Positions 4,222 to 21,464 of a DNA stretch of 64,000 nt are shown here, one piece after another (positions within the stretch are counted from its first letter, which is position 1; each line of letters opens with the position of its first letter). The DNA comes from Anaeromyxobacter dehalogenans 2CP-1 (lineage in GTDB: Bacteria; Myxococcota; Myxococcia; Myxococcales; Anaeromyxobacteraceae), in assembly GCF_000022145.1 (NCBI RefSeq), contig NC_011891.1:1302001-1366000 (forward strand), written 5' to 3'. The notes beneath the pieces were generated by a model that searched no databases, had not been told where the DNA came from, and saw only the letters and a list, made by a program, of their open reading frames with translations. Both the position numbers and the translations under genes were made by a program.

Positions 4222-4295
<74 letters not shown>

Positions 4296-9418: not shown

Positions 9419-10015
9419 TCAACCGCTTTCTCGCTCGAACCGGAGCGTCCGCGCCTCGGTCACCAGCGCGTCGAGCACCGCGTCGTGCGGCTCGCGCGGG
9501 AGCGCGTCCACGAGCTGCACCTCGAACGCGACCCCGACCCGCGCAGCGCGCGGCATGGCCGCGAGCGTGGCGTCGTAGTAGCCGCCGCCGCGCCCGAGCC
9601 GCAGGCCGTCGAGCGAAAAGGCCACCCCGGGCAGCACCACGCAGTCCACCTCGCCCGGCTCGACGAGCGGCGCGTCCTCCGGGGGCTCGAGCGCGCCGAG
9701 CGGCCCGCGCACCAGGTCGAGCGGCACGCAGAGCGCGAAGGCGAGGCGGCGATCGCCGGCCCGGACCTTCGGGAACACCGCGCGCCCACCACCGGCGCGC
9801 ACGCGCGCTGCGAGCTCGAGCACGTCCACCTCGCCGCCGAGCGGCGCGTAGAGCGCGAGCGTGCGGGCGCCCGCGACGAGGTCGAGCGCCTCGAGCCTCG
9901 CGATGACGCGGCGGGAGCGCTCGGCGCGCTCGTCCTGGTCGATGCGAGCCCGCGCGCCGATGAGGGACCTGCGCAGCGCGCGCTTGCGGTCGGAGGGGAT
10001 GGCGGGATCGCTCAC
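9419..10015 (-). CDS. 5-formyltetrahydrofolate cyclo-ligase
   Basis: 198 aa from a GTG at 10015; the frame is open to 10222, but the extra 69 codons coincide with the 6S RNA, so the later start is preferred. The enzyme converts 5-formyl-THF to 5,10-methenyl-THF with ATP. The N-terminal KRALRRSLIGARARI helix binds phosphate, and the C-terminal signature LGRGGGYYDATL is intact. The gene lies directly downstream of the 6S RNA, the ssrS-ygfA arrangement known from many proteobacteria. The ymdB-like gene follows after 34 bases. Confidence 0.92.
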   Translation of the reverse strand: MSDPAIPSDRKRALRRSLIGARARIDQDERAERSRRVIARLEALDLVAGARTLALYAPLGGEVDVLELAARVRAGGGRAVFPKVRAGDRRLAFALCVPLDLVRGPLGALEPPEDAPLVEPGEVDCVVLPGVAFSLDGLRLGRGGGYYDATLAAMPRAARVGVAFEVQLVDALPREPHDAVLDALVTEARTLRFERESG

Positions 10016-10050
10016 CGCGCCGTCTGTGCCCCGAGGCTGGACAAGAAAAA

Positions 10051-10235
10051 GCCCCCCGCGTGGGCCGTGTGGCCCGGTTGTTTGAACCTGTATTTCTACA
10101 GGTGGGGCACCCGGTACACCAGCATCCGTAGGCTTCTCCCTCGCTTCAGGGAGCTTGCTCATGGACGTGGGCGGGCGCTCCGCTTTGGACAAAGTCGGCC
10201 CAAACGACGCAAGGCCAATCACGAACCCGGCAGGG
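10051..10235 (-). ncRNA. ssrS: 6S RNA
   Basis: Minus-strand RNA immediately upstream of the cyclo-ligase gene. Hallmarks of 6S RNA: a GAGC-AAG-CTC segment followed by a GGGAG/GAGAAGCCT stretch, matching the conserved central-bubble side of E. coli 6S. A terminal stem joins GGGTTCGTGATTGGCC (10229-10214) with GGCCACACGGCCC (about 10074-10062). Near the 3' end are a hairpin ACCTGTA-GAAA-TACAGGT and a GC-rich stem running into TTTTT (10050-10046), which serves as terminator. 6S RNA mimics an open promoter and holds sigma70 RNA polymerase in stationary phase. Ends are approximate (a few bases). Confidence 0.82.
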
Positions 10236-10541
10236 GGTACAGCGCAAGCGCGCGGTCAAAGAGCAGTAACCCCGCGTAACCACGCGGTGTTTTACGGAAT
10301 GATCCTAGGCTCGGAGGCCTGGCCTGTCAAGCCGTGCCGAGGGCCACGCCGGGGCGCCCTCTGCGGTCAGAACGGCCTGATCTCGCGGTCGTCCGGCGGC
10401 ACGCGGGAGGGCGCGCGCATTCGCCACGGAGCCGCACCGTTCACGCATCGTGCGCGCAGACACCCGGGGCCCGCCTCCCGGCCCGGGTCCCGTGCGCGCG
10501 GGCGCCCCGCCGTGGCGTTCGTGCTGTAGAACAGCGGCCCG
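10236..10541. other. intergenic region between 6S RNA and kinase gene
   Basis: About 300 bases without a gene. It holds a short hairpin CCGCGT-AACC-ACGCGG (10272-10287) and a TTGACC element (minus, 10259-10254) just upstream of the 6S RNA, with no matching -10 at normal spacing. On the plus strand TAGAAC (10527-10532) sits 9 bases before the kinase ATG and may be its -10. Confidence 0.4.
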
Positions 10542-14747: not shown

Positions 14748-14768
14748 GCGCACCCGTTTGGGGTGCGC
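14748..14768 (-). terminator. hairpin downstream of fic gene
   Basis: A perfect 8-bp stem (14748-14755 with 14761-14768, loop GTTTG) lies 20 bases past the stop of the Fic gene on the minus strand. No T run, so it is either a GC-rich terminator or an RNA 3'-end stabiliser. Confidence 0.45.
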
Positions 14769-14788: not shown

Positions 14789-15553
14789 CTAGCGGGCGGC
14801 CTTCCGGGCCCGCGGCGCCTCGGCGAAGTACTTCTCGGCCTGCGACAGCCCGTTGTCGAGCGCCTCCATGGTCAGGTCGCGCAGGATGGTGTCGGGCAGC
14901 CGCAGCGACTCGTAGTACCGCTGGCGATCGGTCGCGTGGACGATGACCGGCAGCTTGTACCCGGCGTGCAGCAGGACGAGGTTCGCGAGCAGGCGCGCCA
15001 CGCGGCCGGAGTTCTCGGTGAACGGGAACACCTGCATGAAGCCGTGGTGCAGCTTGCACGCCTGCTGGATGGGGTGCGCGTTGCGGAAGTCGGCGCCCTC
15101 GGTCGCCTCGAGCAGCTTCTGGAGCGCGGGCTGGATCTTCGCCGGCTGCGCGATGTCGTGGAAGTACGCGCGGTGGAGCGGCATGTCCTTGCGGTACTCG
15201 GCGACGCTCCGGCCCTCGATGCCGTGGCCGAGCGTCTCGTACAGCTTCTTCACCGTGGTGAGGTTGAGCTTCGGCTTCTTCGCCGCCGCCTCCTCGCGGA
15301 CCAGGTCGAGCGCCACCTTGTGGTTGCGGATCTCCTGGAGCGCGCTCACGAACGTGACGTCGGCGAGCGGCGCGTTGGCGAGCGCGGTGGCGAGCTCCTG
15401 GCTCGAGTACACGACGCCCTCGAGCGCGTTCTCGTGGTAGAGCCACGACAGCTCGTACCGCGCGAGGAAGTCCTGGACGATCTCCGGATCGCCGCGGAGA
15501 CGGTCCGCGAGATCCTCCATGCGATCGTCGATGTCGACGTATCGGGTCCGCAT
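14789..15553 (-). CDS. Fic-domain protein with degenerate catalytic motif
   Basis: 254 aa from the ATG at 15553, preceded by GAGGAG at a good distance. The Fic fold is recognised from HPIQQACKLHHGFMQVFPF and the following RVARLLANLVLLHAGYKLP. The canonical Fic motif HPFx(D/E)GNGRxxR reads FPFTENSGRVAR here (176-187): His becomes Phe176 and GN becomes NS, while Pro, Phe, acidic, Gly and both Arg stay. Without the His, AMP transfer by the usual mechanism is unlikely. An inhibitory-helix-like ENALEG occurs at 41-46. It may be a non-catalytic regulator or use another chemistry. It has its own strong promoter and stands alone. Confidence 0.85.
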   Translation of the reverse strand: MRTRYVDIDDRMEDLADRLRGDPEIVQDFLARYELSWLYHENALEGVVYSSQELATALANAPLADVTFVSALQEIRNHKVALDLVREEAAAKKPKLNLTTVKKLYETLGHGIEGRSVAEYRKDMPLHRAYFHDIAQPAKIQPALQKLLEATEGADFRNAHPIQQACKLHHGFMQVFPFTENSGRVARLLANLVLLHAGYKLPVIVHATDRQRYYESLRLPDTILRDLTMEALDNGLSQAEKYFAEAPRARKAAR

Positions 15554-16898: not shown

Positions 16899-18344
16899 TC
16901 AGGCGAGCGGCGCGAACGGCCGCACCATCCGCGCGACGAACGGCATGTCGGGGTGCAGCTCGGCCTTCCCGGCGTGGATGGCGTGCCGCAGCTCCTCCCG
17001 CGAGGGCACGATCTCGACCGGCGAGAGCACCTTCTGGAACGACCGGTGGTGGTGGGCGAACGGCCGGTTGCGGGTCACGTTCTGCGCGGCGAGCTGCTCC
17101 AGCCCGAACCAGAGCGGCTGGGAGAGCTTGGGCGCGAAGCCCTCCAGCGCGAGCACGAACGCGTTCCGCGTGCCGATGGCGCCGCGCTGCACCGTGGACC
17201 ACGCCGCCCGCGCAGGGAGGTTGTCCACCAGGCCGCCGTCGACGAGCCGGAACACGTCGTGCTTCTCGAGCAGGGCGCCGAGCAGGCGGTGCATGCGCTC
17301 GTCGTCGCGCAGCACGTCGTAGTGGATGACGCCGGGCAGGGCGGAGGAGAAGCCCACCGCGTCGATGGCGTCGAACGCGTGCGTCTCGGCGTCGGCGCCC
17401 AGGTAGATGCGGGCGAACCGGTCGCGCTGCACGATGAGCTCGCCCACCGCCTGCAGCACGTCGGAGAACATGCGGGTGAGCGCGCTCGGCCGCGGCGCGC
17501 GGGCGTCCAGGTCGAGCAGGTGCTCGTAGTAGCCCGGGTCGCGCGGCAGGGCGCCGTTGCGGATCCCGGTGACCGCCACCACCAGCGGCACCGCGAGCTG
17601 CCCGAGCGTGAGCGGGTGGCCGTCCGGGCCCTTCAGGAACTCGCCGATGGCGGCGCGCAGGTACAGGCGCAGCGCCGCGGGCAGGCCGTAGCGGTTCCCG
17701 GTCTGGAGGAAGCGGAACAGCGTGCGGAAGGAGAGCCCGCTCAGCGCCTCGTCCACGTCGTCCGGGTTCCAGCGCGCGCGGCGCGCCCGGAACAGGAGCA
17801 GCACCGAGCCCATGCTGGTGCCGGCCAGCAGCCGCGGCACGAGGCCGTACTGCTCGAGCAGCGCGAACGCGCCGAGGTACGACCAGGCGACGCCGCCGCC
17901 GCCGCCGCACACCAGCACCAGCGCCTTCTCGCAGACCTCGCGGTCGAGCGCGCCGGGCGCGAGGCGCCCCTCCGCCGCCGCCACGGCCCGCGCCCGGAAC
18001 GCGCGGGCGCGCAGCGACAGGTTCGGCACCATCCCGGTCGCGGCGGCGCGATCCGGTCCGCCGGTCGCGAGCAGGGCCGAGACGAGCGGGCGCACGTCCT
18101 CGCGGAACGGGGCGAGCGCGGGCTCGAGGTCCACCTCGCCGCCGTCCGGTGCGCGGATCCGGCCGATCCGCGCCAGGTTGAGCGCGTAGCGGAGCGCCGC
18201 CTCGTCTCGCTCGGACAGCCACGCGGGCGTGCTCACCACCGAGCGGACCAGCGCGGCCTCGGCCTCCTCGAACGGGCGGATGGCCTCGTGGTGCAGGTCG
18301 AGCGGGTCTTCGGGCGGGACGGGGCGCATCGGGGGCGGGCGCAT
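16899..18344 (-). CDS. patatin-like phospholipase domain protein
   Basis: 481 aa (a second ATG at residue 6, position 18329, is also possible). Patatin elements are in order: oxyanion loop CGGGGGVAWSYLG (about 145-157), nucleophile elbow GTSMGS and the Asp of DGGLVDN (about 367-373), forming the Ser-Asp dyad of acyl hydrolases. A helical N-terminal region of about 130 residues precedes the domain. No signal peptide, so it acts in the cytoplasm or on the inner membrane face. Substrate unknown, probably a phospholipid or lysophospholipid. It precedes ilvE on the same strand with about 110 bases between. Confidence 0.9.
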   Translation of the reverse strand: MRPPPMRPVPPEDPLDLHHEAIRPFEEAEAALVRSVVSTPAWLSERDEAALRYALNLARIGRIRAPDGGEVDLEPALAPFREDVRPLVSALLATGGPDRAAATGMVPNLSLRARAFRARAVAAAEGRLAPGALDREVCEKALVLVCGGGGGVAWSYLGAFALLEQYGLVPRLLAGTSMGSVLLLFRARRARWNPDDVDEALSGLSFRTLFRFLQTGNRYGLPAALRLYLRAAIGEFLKGPDGHPLTLGQLAVPLVVAVTGIRNGALPRDPGYYEHLLDLDARAPRPSALTRMFSDVLQAVGELIVQRDRFARIYLGADAETHAFDAIDAVGFSSALPGVIHYDVLRDDERMHRLLGALLEKHDVFRLVDGGLVDNLPARAAWSTVQRGAIGTRNAFVLALEGFAPKLSQPLWFGLEQLAAQNVTRNRPFAHHHRSFQKVLSPVEIVPSREELRHAIHAGKAELHPDMPFVARMVRPFAPLA

Positions 18345-18419
18345 TCTACGCCGCGGCCCCGACGCGCCCGTACCCCACCTCGGCGCACCCGGCCGGCGGG
18401 CGGCGCCGCGGGCGCGGCG

Positions 18420-21400
18420 TCAGCGCACGACGTCGTCGAACGCCTGGCGCACCGCCGCGGTCACGCGCGCGTACTCCGCCAGGAACCGCGTGCCCGGCTC
18501 CGCGCCGTAGTAGCCGAGCCGCCGCGCGAGCTGGTGCAGCGGCGGCCCGCTCGCGGGCAGGTGGTCGATGGTGAAGTCGTGGACGATGCGCAGGCGCAGC
18601 TCGACGTGGCGCAGGAACTCGTACCCGCGCGCGAGCGCCTCGTGCTCCGCCTCGCGCAGCAGGCCGGCGGCGCGCAGCGCGCGCAGCGCCACCGGGGTCG
18701 AGGGGGTCCGGATGGAGGGGTGGTCGTGCCCGTGCGCGAGCTGGAGGAACTGCGCCGCGAACTCCACGTCCACCAGCCCGCCGCGCCCGGTCTTCGGGTT
18801 CTTCCCGTGCGAGGCCTCGCGCGACAGCTCCGACTCCATCCGCTCCCGCATGCGCCGGATCTCGGCGGCGAGCGCGGCGGGGTCCTCGCGCCGGCCGTAG
18901 ACCGCCGGCACGATGGCGCGCGCGCTCACGTCGTCGAACAGCGCGCGGTCGCCGGCCACGAACCGCGCGCGGAGCAGCGCCTGGCGCTCCCAGAGCTGGC
19001 TGCGCACCGCGCCGGCCGCGCCGTCGCGCGCGGCGCCGCCCGGGAGCGCCTCGCCGGTGTGGTAGCGCACGAACCCCTCGGCGCCGATCACCAGCGCGCC
19101 CTGGTTGCCGGAGGGGCGCAGGCGCGTGTCGATCTGGTACAGGCGCCCCTCGCGCAGCGGCATCTGCAGGAAGGACATGAACCGCTGCGCGAGCCGGGCG
19201 TAGCGCTCGAAGCCGGGCTCGGCGCCGCCCGGGTAGAGGAAGATGAGGTCGAGGTCGGAGTGGTAGCCGAGCTCGCGCCCGCCCAGCTTCCCCATGCCGA
19301 TGACGCAGAGCCGGCCCGGCGGCAGCACGCCCTTGGCGCGCGCCTCGTCCTCGGCCAGCGCGAGGCACGCCTCCAGGCACGACTCGGCGAGATCCGAGAG
19401 CTGGCTCGCGACGCTGGGCAGGTCCACGGTGCCGGCGATGTCGTGGATGGCGATCCGCAGCACCTCCTCGTCCTTGAAGCGGCGCAGCTCGCCCAGCTCG
19501 TGCTCCAGCAGGTCGTCGAGCGGGAGCGACCGGTCCACCGTCGCGAGGCGCTCGCGCACCCCGGCGCGGAGCTCGTCGAGCGGCTTCTCCAGCACCACCT
19601 GGTCCTCCCGGAGCAGCAGGTCGATGAGCTCGGGGTGGCGCAGGAAGCGCTTGGACAGGAAGTCGGAGGTGCCGAACAGCGAGAGCAGCAGCCGCGCGAT
19701 GCGGCGGTGCTCGGCCAGCATCTTGAAGTACGGGTCGGGGTTGCGGAGCGCGGCGGCGAAGTCGGCGAGGTGCGAGAGCGCCTGGTCGGGATCGGGCGTG
19801 CCGAGCGCATCCGCGAGGAGCGACACGGCCGCGGCGGGATCGCCGAGCTGCGAGAACGGCGTGCGCCGGCGGGCCATCGAGTCGATGGCGGCGATGGCGC
19901 GGTCCGGGTCGGCGAGGCCGCGGCGGGTCGCGATGGCGGCGCGGCGGTCCGCGGGCACGTCGGCGTCGGCGAGCAGCGCCAGCTCGGGATCGAGCGGGGC
20001 GGTGCCGGCGCCGGTGCCGAGCAGGCCGGCGAAGTGGCGGGCCACGCGCTCGCGGTGGTCCGAGAGCACCGCCTCGAACGCCTGCTCGGACGCGTAGCCC
20101 ATGGCGCGGGCCAGGCCGGTCCGCTCGCCGGGCGGGGGCAGGCGCTGGGTCTGGGCGCCGTCCACCATCTGGACGCGGTGCTCGGCGCGCCGCAGGAACA
20201 GGTACGCGTCGGCGAGCTCGTCGCGGTCCTTGGCCGGGACCACGCCGGCGAACAGGAGCCGCTCCAGCGCCGGCAGCACCGCGCGCTCGCGGAGCGGCCG
20301 GCCCTCGTCGCGCCCGCCGTGCAGGAGCTGCAGCGCCGAGACGAAGAACTCCACCTCGCGGATCCCGCCGCGGCCCAGCTTCAGGTCGTCCTTGCCCTCG
20401 GCGCCGGCGCGGGCGTCGATGCGCGCCTTCATCGCCTGGATCTCCGCCACCACGTCGAGGTCCAGGCTGCGGCGCCACACGAACGGCTCGAGGTGCCGGA
20501 GCAGCTCGTCGCCCACCGCGAGATCGCCGGCGCCGGGCCGCGCCTTCACGAGCGCGTTGCGCTCCCAGGAGCGCCCGAACGCCTGGTAGTAGTACTCGGC
20601 GGCCGGAATGCTGTTCACGATGGGCCCGCTCCGGCCGTCCGGCCGGAGGTTCAGGTCCACCCGGAACACGAACCCGTCCTCGGTGGGCTTCGCGATGGCC
20701 TCGGTGACGTGCTCGGCGAGCTTCGCGTAGTAGGCGAAGTGCGTGAGCGGCTTCGGCCCGTCGGTCTGGCCGTCCTGCCCGTACACGTAGATGAGGTCGA
20801 TGTCGGAGGAGAAGTTGAGCTCGCGCGCGCCGAGCTTGCCCATGGCGACCGCGCAGAAGCCCGCGCCGAACTCGCGCCCGGCCAGGCCGGACGGCGCGCC
20901 GTGGCGGGCGCGCAGGCGCCGGTCGTGGAAGCGGATGGCGGCGTCCACGCAGGCGCAGGCGAGCGCCGACAGCTCCCCGGTGATCTCCTTCACGCGCGCC
21001 CGGCGCAGGTCGCGGAGCGCGATGCGCACCACCTCGCGCGCGCGCACCCGCCGGAGCAGGCGGTGGAAGCCGTCCACGTCCCCGGGGTCGAGGCGCCGCG
21101 CGGTCCGGGAGAGCACGCGGCGCAGGTCGGCCTCGGTGCGCGGGCGGAGCAGGTGCGGCGAGCGGGCGGCGCGCCGGAGCAGGCGCGGGTCGCGGGCGAG
21201 CAGGGCGGCGACCAGCCGCGACCCGCCGCAGAGCAGCGCGAGCGCCTCCAGCAGGTCCGGCTCGGCGGGCAGCGCGCCCGCGCCGTCCACGTACCGCTCG
21301 ATGCCGGCGAGCGCCAGGTCCGGATCCGGCGCGCAGGCGCACGCCTCGCGCACCGCGGCGATCCGGCCGGGGAACTTCCGCTCCAGGCGGGCGAGCCGCT

Positions 21401-21464
21401 CCTGCGACTCCGGGGCGCGGGGCTCGAGGGGCGGCAGGCCGGGGATCGCGTGCGAGGTGGGCAT
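18420..21464 (-). CDS. glnE: bifunctional glutamine synthetase adenylyltransferase/deadenylase
   Basis: 1014 aa. The protein has two nucleotidyltransferase halves, each with its own GKLG-RE(L)-SDIDLI(Y/F) signature: MGKLGARELNFSSDIDLIYVY in the N-terminal half (deadenylase) and MGKLGGRELGYHSDLDLIFLY in the C-terminal half (adenylylase), each followed by an HxVE(F/L)-type helical domain. It switches glutamine synthetase activity by adenylylating or deadenylylating a tyrosine in response to PII. Length is slightly over the E. coli enzyme (946). The patatin gene follows after 75 bases; the lipoprotein gene diverges upstream. Confidence 0.97.
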   Translation of the reverse strand: MPTSHAIPGLPPLEPRAPESQERLARLERKFPGRIAAVREACACAPDPDLALAGIERYVDGAGALPAEPDLLEALALLCGGSRLVAALLARDPRLLRRAARSPHLLRPRTEADLRRVLSRTARRLDPGDVDGFHRLLRRVRAREVVRIALRDLRRARVKEITGELSALACACVDAAIRFHDRRLRARHGAPSGLAGREFGAGFCAVAMGKLGARELNFSSDIDLIYVYGQDGQTDGPKPLTHFAYYAKLAEHVTEAIAKPTEDGFVFRVDLNLRPDGRSGPIVNSIPAAEYYYQAFGRSWERNALVKARPGAGDLAVGDELLRHLEPFVWRRSLDLDVVAEIQAMKARIDARAGAEGKDDLKLGRGGIREVEFFVSALQLLHGGRDEGRPLRERAVLPALERLLFAGVVPAKDRDELADAYLFLRRAEHRVQMVDGAQTQRLPPPGERTGLARAMGYASEQAFEAVLSDHRERVARHFAGLLGTGAGTAPLDPELALLADADVPADRRAAIATRRGLADPDRAIAAIDSMARRRTPFSQLGDPAAAVSLLADALGTPDPDQALSHLADFAAALRNPDPYFKMLAEHRRIARLLLSLFGTSDFLSKRFLRHPELIDLLLREDQVVLEKPLDELRAGVRERLATVDRSLPLDDLLEHELGELRRFKDEEVLRIAIHDIAGTVDLPSVASQLSDLAESCLEACLALAEDEARAKGVLPPGRLCVIGMGKLGGRELGYHSDLDLIFLYPGGAEPGFERYARLAQRFMSFLQMPLREGRLYQIDTRLRPSGNQGALVIGAEGFVRYHTGEALPGGAARDGAAGAVRSQLWERQALLRARFVAGDRALFDDVSARAIVPAVYGRREDPAALAAEIRRMRERMESELSREASHGKNPKTGRGGLVDVEFAAQFLQLAHGHDHPSIRTPSTPVALRALRAAGLLREAEHEALARGYEFLRHVELRLRIVHDFTIDHLPASGPPLHQLARRLGYYGAEPGTRFLAEYARVTAAVRQAFDDVVR

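Follow-up and report, generated by a model that had tools for sequence, protein, structure and literature searches.

A Fic-fold protein family without the catalytic histidine in the core genome of the Myxococcota

In the usual view one histidine defines the Fic proteins, most of which are taken to be mobile toxins, to be effectors or to act as stress enzymes. Among solved structures FICD (HYPE), the metazoan AMPylase and deAMPylase, comes closest to the proteins analyzed here. Glu234 of FICD is described as restraining the ATP that is competent for AMPylation; in the reverse reaction the same residue positions the water for hydrolysis of the AMP-Thr bond, and His363 is the putative general acid (PMC8373988). 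The flap of conventional Fic proteins is described as docking a strand of the target via main-chain contacts, i.e. independently of its sequence (PMC3667792). In a survey from 2015 most of 1,883 Fic/Doc sequences fell into five motif groups, one of which, a Doc group, has Gln for His (PMC4454073). None of the five consensus motifs of this survey has Met or an aromatic residue in place of the His, and no word in its main text begins with 'myxo'. We found no description of the branch reported below in the open-licence PMC literature on degenerate or pseudo-Fic proteins or on myxobacterial Fic proteins.

The gene and its predicted fold

The window analyzed here is a stretch of 64,000 nucleotides from the soil bacterium Anaeromyxobacter dehalogenans 2CP-1, whose genome of 5.03 Mb is a single contig. 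It contains a gene for a protein of 254 aa (Table 1). The Pfam Fic profile matches residues 96-194 of the protein with 55.8 bits (cut-off 24), and it also matches all of the orthologues (31/31, E <= 0.001) in a family profile termed A1; membership in the Fic/Fido proteins is thus indicated by the Pfam profile. The canonical AMP-transferase motif HPFx(D/E)GN(G/K)RxxR is absent. The motif FPFTENSGRVAR departs from HPFx(D/E)GNGRxxR by H176F, G181N and N182S, while Gly183 and Arg187 are retained. The codon at the position of the catalytic His is TTC. The nearest named relatives all come from Anaeromyxobacter, namely strain PSR-1 (99%) and A. oryzae and A. oryzisoli (~85%), and in all eight Anaeromyxobacter orthologues that were read the codon at position 176 is TTC.

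Table 1. Features of the window, with positions counted from its first nucleotide.
Feature	Position	Strand	Basis
CDS, Fic-fold protein without catalytic His, 254 aa + stop	14789..15553	-	Pfam Fic, FICD fold match
FIC motif FPFTENSGRVAR, residues 176-187	14993..15028	-	sequence; columns counted over family
alpha-inh motif YHENALEG, residues 39-46; gate Glu45 kept, Ser/Thr41 replaced by acid	15416..15439	-	family columns
Flap, residues 121-137, signature R-x3-P-L-H-R-x-Y-F-H	15143..15193	-	family columns
Base-side element HATDRQRYYESL, residues 206-217 (~ YY of FICD)	14903..14938	-	R210, Y213 88/88; FICD alignment
Sigma-70-like promoter TTGACC-18-TAGATT	15696-15667	-	consensus match only
Hairpin 3' of gene, perfect 8-bp stem, no T run	14748..14768	-	folding vs shuffles
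glnE (GS adenylyltransferase) and patatin-like gene, upstream, same orientation	16899-21464	-	
6S RNA	10049-10239	-	Rfam RF00013, 63.5 bits
tRNA gene	4222-4295	-	Rfam RF00005

A structure was predicted with AlphaFold2 from an input of nine sequences (A2). The model has a pTM of 0.79 and a mean pLDDT of 76.6, with values of only 53-67 in the gate helix and the flap. It shows the helical Fic fold: the top fold match in the PDB is FICD (Z 23.6, rmsd 2.7), with residues 1-251 placed on FICD 189-441. By sequence, too, no PDB entry matches the family profile better than FICD (105.9 bits). From the offset of the fold alignment residue 45 corresponds to FICD Glu234, and from the motif residue 176 corresponds to His363.

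An earlier note on this DNA had described a Fic protein with Phe in place of the catalytic His, an otherwise intact fold, a good promoter and a hairpin of its own. The Phe codon, the Pfam match and the predicted fold bear out the first two points. A sigma-70-like site is present as well, recognized by its match to the consensus only; it is the sole such site in the scanned stretch, while shuffled sequences gave a mean of 0.0. For the hairpin the claim held in part. The stem exists, but a terminator role does not follow from it: the folding of the stretch is no stronger than that of shuffled sequences (z -1.12), and no terminator followed by a run of T turned up in the scan of this stretch.

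Two further Fic/Doc genes occur in the host genome. One (L001) encodes a conventional Fic protein with HPFADGNGR. The other (L002; G000:C1:3387319-3387564) is Doc-like and carries QPFVDGNKR, with Gln for the catalytic His, which matches the motif given for clade D2 in PMC4454073. The catalytic His is hence missing from two of the three Fic/Doc genes of this genome.

Elsewhere in the window the 6S RNA runs into the extended start region of an ORF (9419-10222), which, judged by eye from its sequence, we take to encode 5-formyltetrahydrofolate cyclo-ligase. The pairing of 6S RNA with ygfA is known in other bacteria. The actual start codon of this ORF probably lies further downstream.

Distribution, descent and gene neighbourhood

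A search with the single protein matched 57 of 60 near relatives (E <= 1e-10). The profile A1, which was built from 31 orthologues, was then used at E <= 1e-15 and matched 177 of 195 Myxococcota genomes; 176/195 remain after removal of one genome (G058), whose match is a conventional HPF paralogue. Among the genomes that are at least 90% complete with no more than 5% contamination, the family is present in 142/149 (143/149 before the removal) and missing from seven. Most carriers have a single A1 match, and they include a genome of only 1.3 Mb (G172) with an estimated completeness of 99%. Ten loci came from genomes scored as lacking the family. Eight of them are conventional, with HPF or HPY; one (L147) is ambiguous, and one (L142) is a fragment at a contig end which covers the first 60 profile residues and does not reach the motif.

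Outside the phylum 189 genomes were searched (384 genomes minus the 195; the samples overlap). Matches to A1 at E <= 1e-15 were obtained in 21/189, and 19 of these 21 genomes contain conventional Fics only. True members of the family occur in two genomes of the 189, G321 and G284, so that the family is not exclusive to the Myxococcota. The motif begins with M-P-Y in G321 and with Y-P-F in G284, where the gene is split over two contigs. The family is present in all five genomes sampled from the G321 phylum, each time with Met at the position of the His, and in the single genome sampled from that of G284. These data show that the family belongs to the core genome of the Myxococcota, mostly as a single copy, and that it occurs in two other phyla.

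The column of the catalytic His was read in 88 distinct family sequences, 82 of them from Myxococcota, five from the G321 phylum and one from G284; the reading at residue level therefore covers 82 distinct sequences of the phylum rather than all 176 genomes. The column contains Phe in 70, Tyr in 13 and Met in 5 sequences, and His in none (0/88). The same searches supplied 31 conventional Fics for comparison, among them three plasmid proteins used as yardsticks and three paralogues (L075, L076 and L138); all 31 have His in this column. A set of 79 loci gave 54 distinct sequences, of which L075 and L076 were set aside as conventional; in a separate step ten loci with less than 100 bits were left out.

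The phylogeny of 119 sequences was estimated with FastTree; sequences with fewer than 120 aligned letters were left out, among them L173, which has Tyr and is counted at position 176 only. The 88 sequences without His form one clade with a support of 0.88. This clade consists of 87 sequences read at position 176 and of a fragment (L152) that does not cover it. Support is at least 0.99 for each of the clades formed by the families f1, f4 and f7, which agrees with vertical descent. The split between the G321 clade and the Myxococcota has a low support of 0.57. The conventional HPF Fics found in the same genomes are separate paralogues. We conclude that the loss of the His is ancestral to the whole clade.

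For 11 close pairs the dN/dS ratio (NG86) is between 0.04 and 0.25, and the gene is therefore maintained and not decaying, as the earlier note had supposed. The note had also reasoned that orthologues with a normal HPF motif would make the change a mutation of one strain; we looked for such orthologues and found none. The residues which it had singled out differ in their conservation: position 176 is free of His throughout (88/88) and position 182 is Ser/Thr in 85/88, but Asn181 is found in only 19/88. A decaying pseudogene, a sequencing error or a strain mutation is practically negligible as an explanation and is ruled out by the uniform TTC codon in Anaeromyxobacter, the presence throughout the phylum and the low dN/dS ratios. 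The branch is old, and wider than it had appeared in the earlier note; it is a real and maintained variant of a known fold family.

On the coding strand the genes are arranged in the order glnE, patatin, ilvE-like aminotransferase, fic, endonuclease IV-like, DHH phosphoesterase and cysteine desulfurase. Five of the gene products were identified by Pfam; the desulfurase was recognized by eye from its sequence and is presumably a cysteine desulfurase. The neighbours were compared over 64 loci with an anchored gene (ten of 74 loci had no anchor at gene-picking). In the loci that have it, the aminotransferase cluster precedes fic in the same orientation (26/26), and the endonuclease IV cluster, where it occurs, is downstream of fic (23/23). 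No neighbour is constant across the phylum among the 64 anchored loci, and the fic gene thus seems not to depend on a particular partner gene. The small antitoxin gene that adjoins fic in class I FicTA pairs is missing here: the adjacent genes encode the aminotransferase and the endonuclease IV-like protein, and the alpha-inh motif is internal. With no small partner gene, a toxin-antitoxin pair is ruled out. The glnE gene is located three genes upstream of fic, and its cluster is found at about -4.2 kb in 18 loci. A link through AMP chemistry was considered and set aside, since the genes in question resemble a house-keeping cluster of a general kind.

A gene for an AAA ATPase of ~460 aa (e.g. 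L051:3460-4854 (+)) is directly upstream on the same strand in all 15 loci which have it. It is restricted to f4 and some other families and classes, and has weak similarity to Pfam AAA (24.2 bits) and to IetA of PADLOC (42.9 bits). One protein search, a weak negative, found no such ATPase in the host genome. An obligate partnership is ruled out by the restriction to some families and by the lack of a match in the host genome.

Searches of viral contigs gave no relative of the Fic-fold protein, and phage records gave one remote match with 30% identity. Among plasmids 30 records matched with at most ~30% identity; three of them were examined and are conventional HPF Fics. A mobile or phage origin is ruled out by these searches. 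The matches to the PADLOC profiles PDC-S04 (50.9 bits) and SoFic (48.7 bits), for which no cut-off is stated, reflect general Fic similarity, and a role as a defence system is not favoured.

A remodelled cleft

The loss of the His is accompanied by changes at other positions of the motif. Residue 180 is an acid in 68/88 family members, while 30/31 conventional Fics have D. Gly at position 181 is found in 13/88 compared with 31/31, and a role for Asn181 is not supported by the family alignment. Position 182 is Asn in only 2/88, as opposed to 30/31 of the conventional proteins; Ser/Thr is newly fixed here, with 85/88 in the family and 1/31 in the conventional set. Position 184, Arg in 31/31 conventional Fics, is Arg in 28/88 and otherwise mostly Lys. 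The residues of AMP transfer are thus lost or relaxed, namely the His, the metal acid, the Gly/Asn of the anion nest and the phosphate Arg. Other residues are unchanged in 88/88, i.e. Pro177, Gly183, Arg187, Arg210 and Tyr213, and position 214 is Tyr/Phe in all 88.

The inhibitory helix and the flap contain residues that are fixed across the family. The gate position 45 is Glu or Asp in 87/87, and Gly46 is present in 87/87. Position 41 is Glu/Asp in 87/87; none of 30 conventional proteins has an acid here, where Ser/Thr is found in 30/30. Similarly, Tyr130 occurs in 87/87 family members and in 0/31 conventional Fics. His40 and His132 are each present in 87/87, but they also occur in 8/30 and 12/31 conventional proteins, respectively; these residues are fixed rather than new. 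His127 is present in 81/87; the G321 phylum has Tyr-Gly in place of His127-Arg128. From Arg121 to residue 140 the alignment with conventional proteins such as L148 is free of gaps, and the signature P-L-H-R-x-Y-F-H of the flap is therefore no alignment artefact there. The alignment of the family profile to FICD has gaps within the flap.

The median entropy is 0.45 bits at 21 cleft positions and 2.22 bits elsewhere in residues 20-245 (Mann-Whitney p 2e-10); the 21 positions were picked from known Fic sites and the conserved flap, partly post hoc, and the test is to this extent circular.

Possible functions and known relatives

The altered motif suggests that the HPF mechanism has been given up, and the branch would almost certainly not transfer AMP in that way. 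The cleft would probably still bind a nucleotide-type ligand, either a nucleotide or a nucleotidylated group. If it does, a different catalysis, most naturally a hydrolysis, is evenly balanced against none. Because the gate Glu-Arg pair is invariant, hydrolysis would be at least as natural as transfer, and a gate-Glu hydrolysis of the FICD type (de-nucleotidylation) is the half-reaction that the permanent pair would most likely have retained. The proton donor that replaces the His might be His132 or Tyr130 of the flap, or His40, and any such substitute is a guess. Residues 41, 45, 130, 132 and 187 presumably lie close to each other. The invariance of the flap suggests one ligand or target throughout the phylum, which would serve house-keeping rather than be the target of a toxin. 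A house-keeping enzyme with a moved active site (acids 41/45, Tyr130/His132, Arg187), which acts on a single conserved nucleotidylated substrate by hydrolysis or by some other reaction, is conceivable, and we propose it with reserve.

The earlier note had offered a regulatory pseudo-Fic or a different transfer chemistry, and sequence alone cannot discriminate between the two. Our own preference, which is tentative, is for an ancient and vertically inherited Fido branch with a remodelled nucleotide cleft, in which hydrolysis by the gate Glu would be the most likely activity. Against hydrolysis stands the fact that the family has no His at the 363 position, which is described as required in FICD (PMC8373988). 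A close rival, of nearly equal weight, is a non-catalytic regulator, and we regard it as quite possible. Such a pseudoenzyme would bind a nucleotide or peptide in the cleft and serve as a sensor, a scaffold or a competitor for an active Fic or a house-keeping protein. It would be in line with the alteration or relaxation of base, metal acid, anion-nest Asn and phosphate Arg, with a fold that is retained though most of the canonical chemistry is lost, and with the conservation of acid 45 (87/87) and Arg187 (88/88). It accounts less well for a cleft that is the most conserved part of the protein and has newly fixed an ionisable acid at 41 and Tyr130, which is beyond the needs of a scaffold.

The other alternatives are transferases. 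AvrB, a Fido protein reported to be without the motif (PMC2686095), is reported to rhamnosylate RIN4 (PMC10866546), and AvrB chains do match the model; an enzyme of this kind would move a sugar or another group without the usual motif. We consider it improbable, since the match is weak (Z 9.0-9.6) and far below that of FICD, the gate helix and its acid, which oppose transfer in FICD-like proteins, are invariant here, and the flap is unlike a variable target dock. An ordinary AMP transferase that copes without the His is very improbable. IbpA with a His-to-Ala exchange keeps some activity, as cited in PMC4454073, but dFIC H375A is reported to be without activity (PMC8097203), and in the family Gly181, Asn182 and acid 180 are also gone or loosened.

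The branch without His departs from the usual picture of Fic proteins given above: nearly all genomes of a phylum carry the gene, mostly as a single copy, and it is under purifying selection and has invariant cleft residues of its own. It is a clean natural experiment on the capabilities of the gate Glu-Arg pair and of the Fic cleft when AMP transfer is absent, and cultured, non-pathogenic myxobacteria make it accessible.

The family resembles several described systems in part. With AvrB it has in common a Fido fold without the canonical motif; AvrB differs as a plant-directed effector with an inserted lobe. The Doc subclade D2, with the motif QxFx(D/E)(G/V)NKR according to PMC4454073, also shows a replacement of the catalytic His throughout a clade. 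It differs in having Gln rather than an aromatic residue or Met and a single domain of the Doc type, and Phe176 and SGR place the present protein outside of it. The class II bacterial Fics, e.g. BT_2513 (3cuc), and the conventional HPF Fics L148-L150 and L153 are similar in size and arrangement and share the gate helix, GxYR and RxxYY; unlike the family, the conventional sequences compared have His176 (31/31) and Asn182 (30/31). The inhibitory motif (S/T)xxxE(G/N) of class II is half present here, with acid 45 and Gly46 kept and Ser/Thr41 lost. From FICD, to which the identity is ~16%, the family differs by the missing His at the 363 position, the acid in place of the Ser/Thr of the inhibitory motif, the relaxed metal acid and nest Gly/Asn, the invariant His/Tyr signature of the flap and the lack of a TPR part. 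Common to the two are the fold, the N-terminal inhibitory helix, the pairing of the gate Glu with an Arg, and the YY on the base side.
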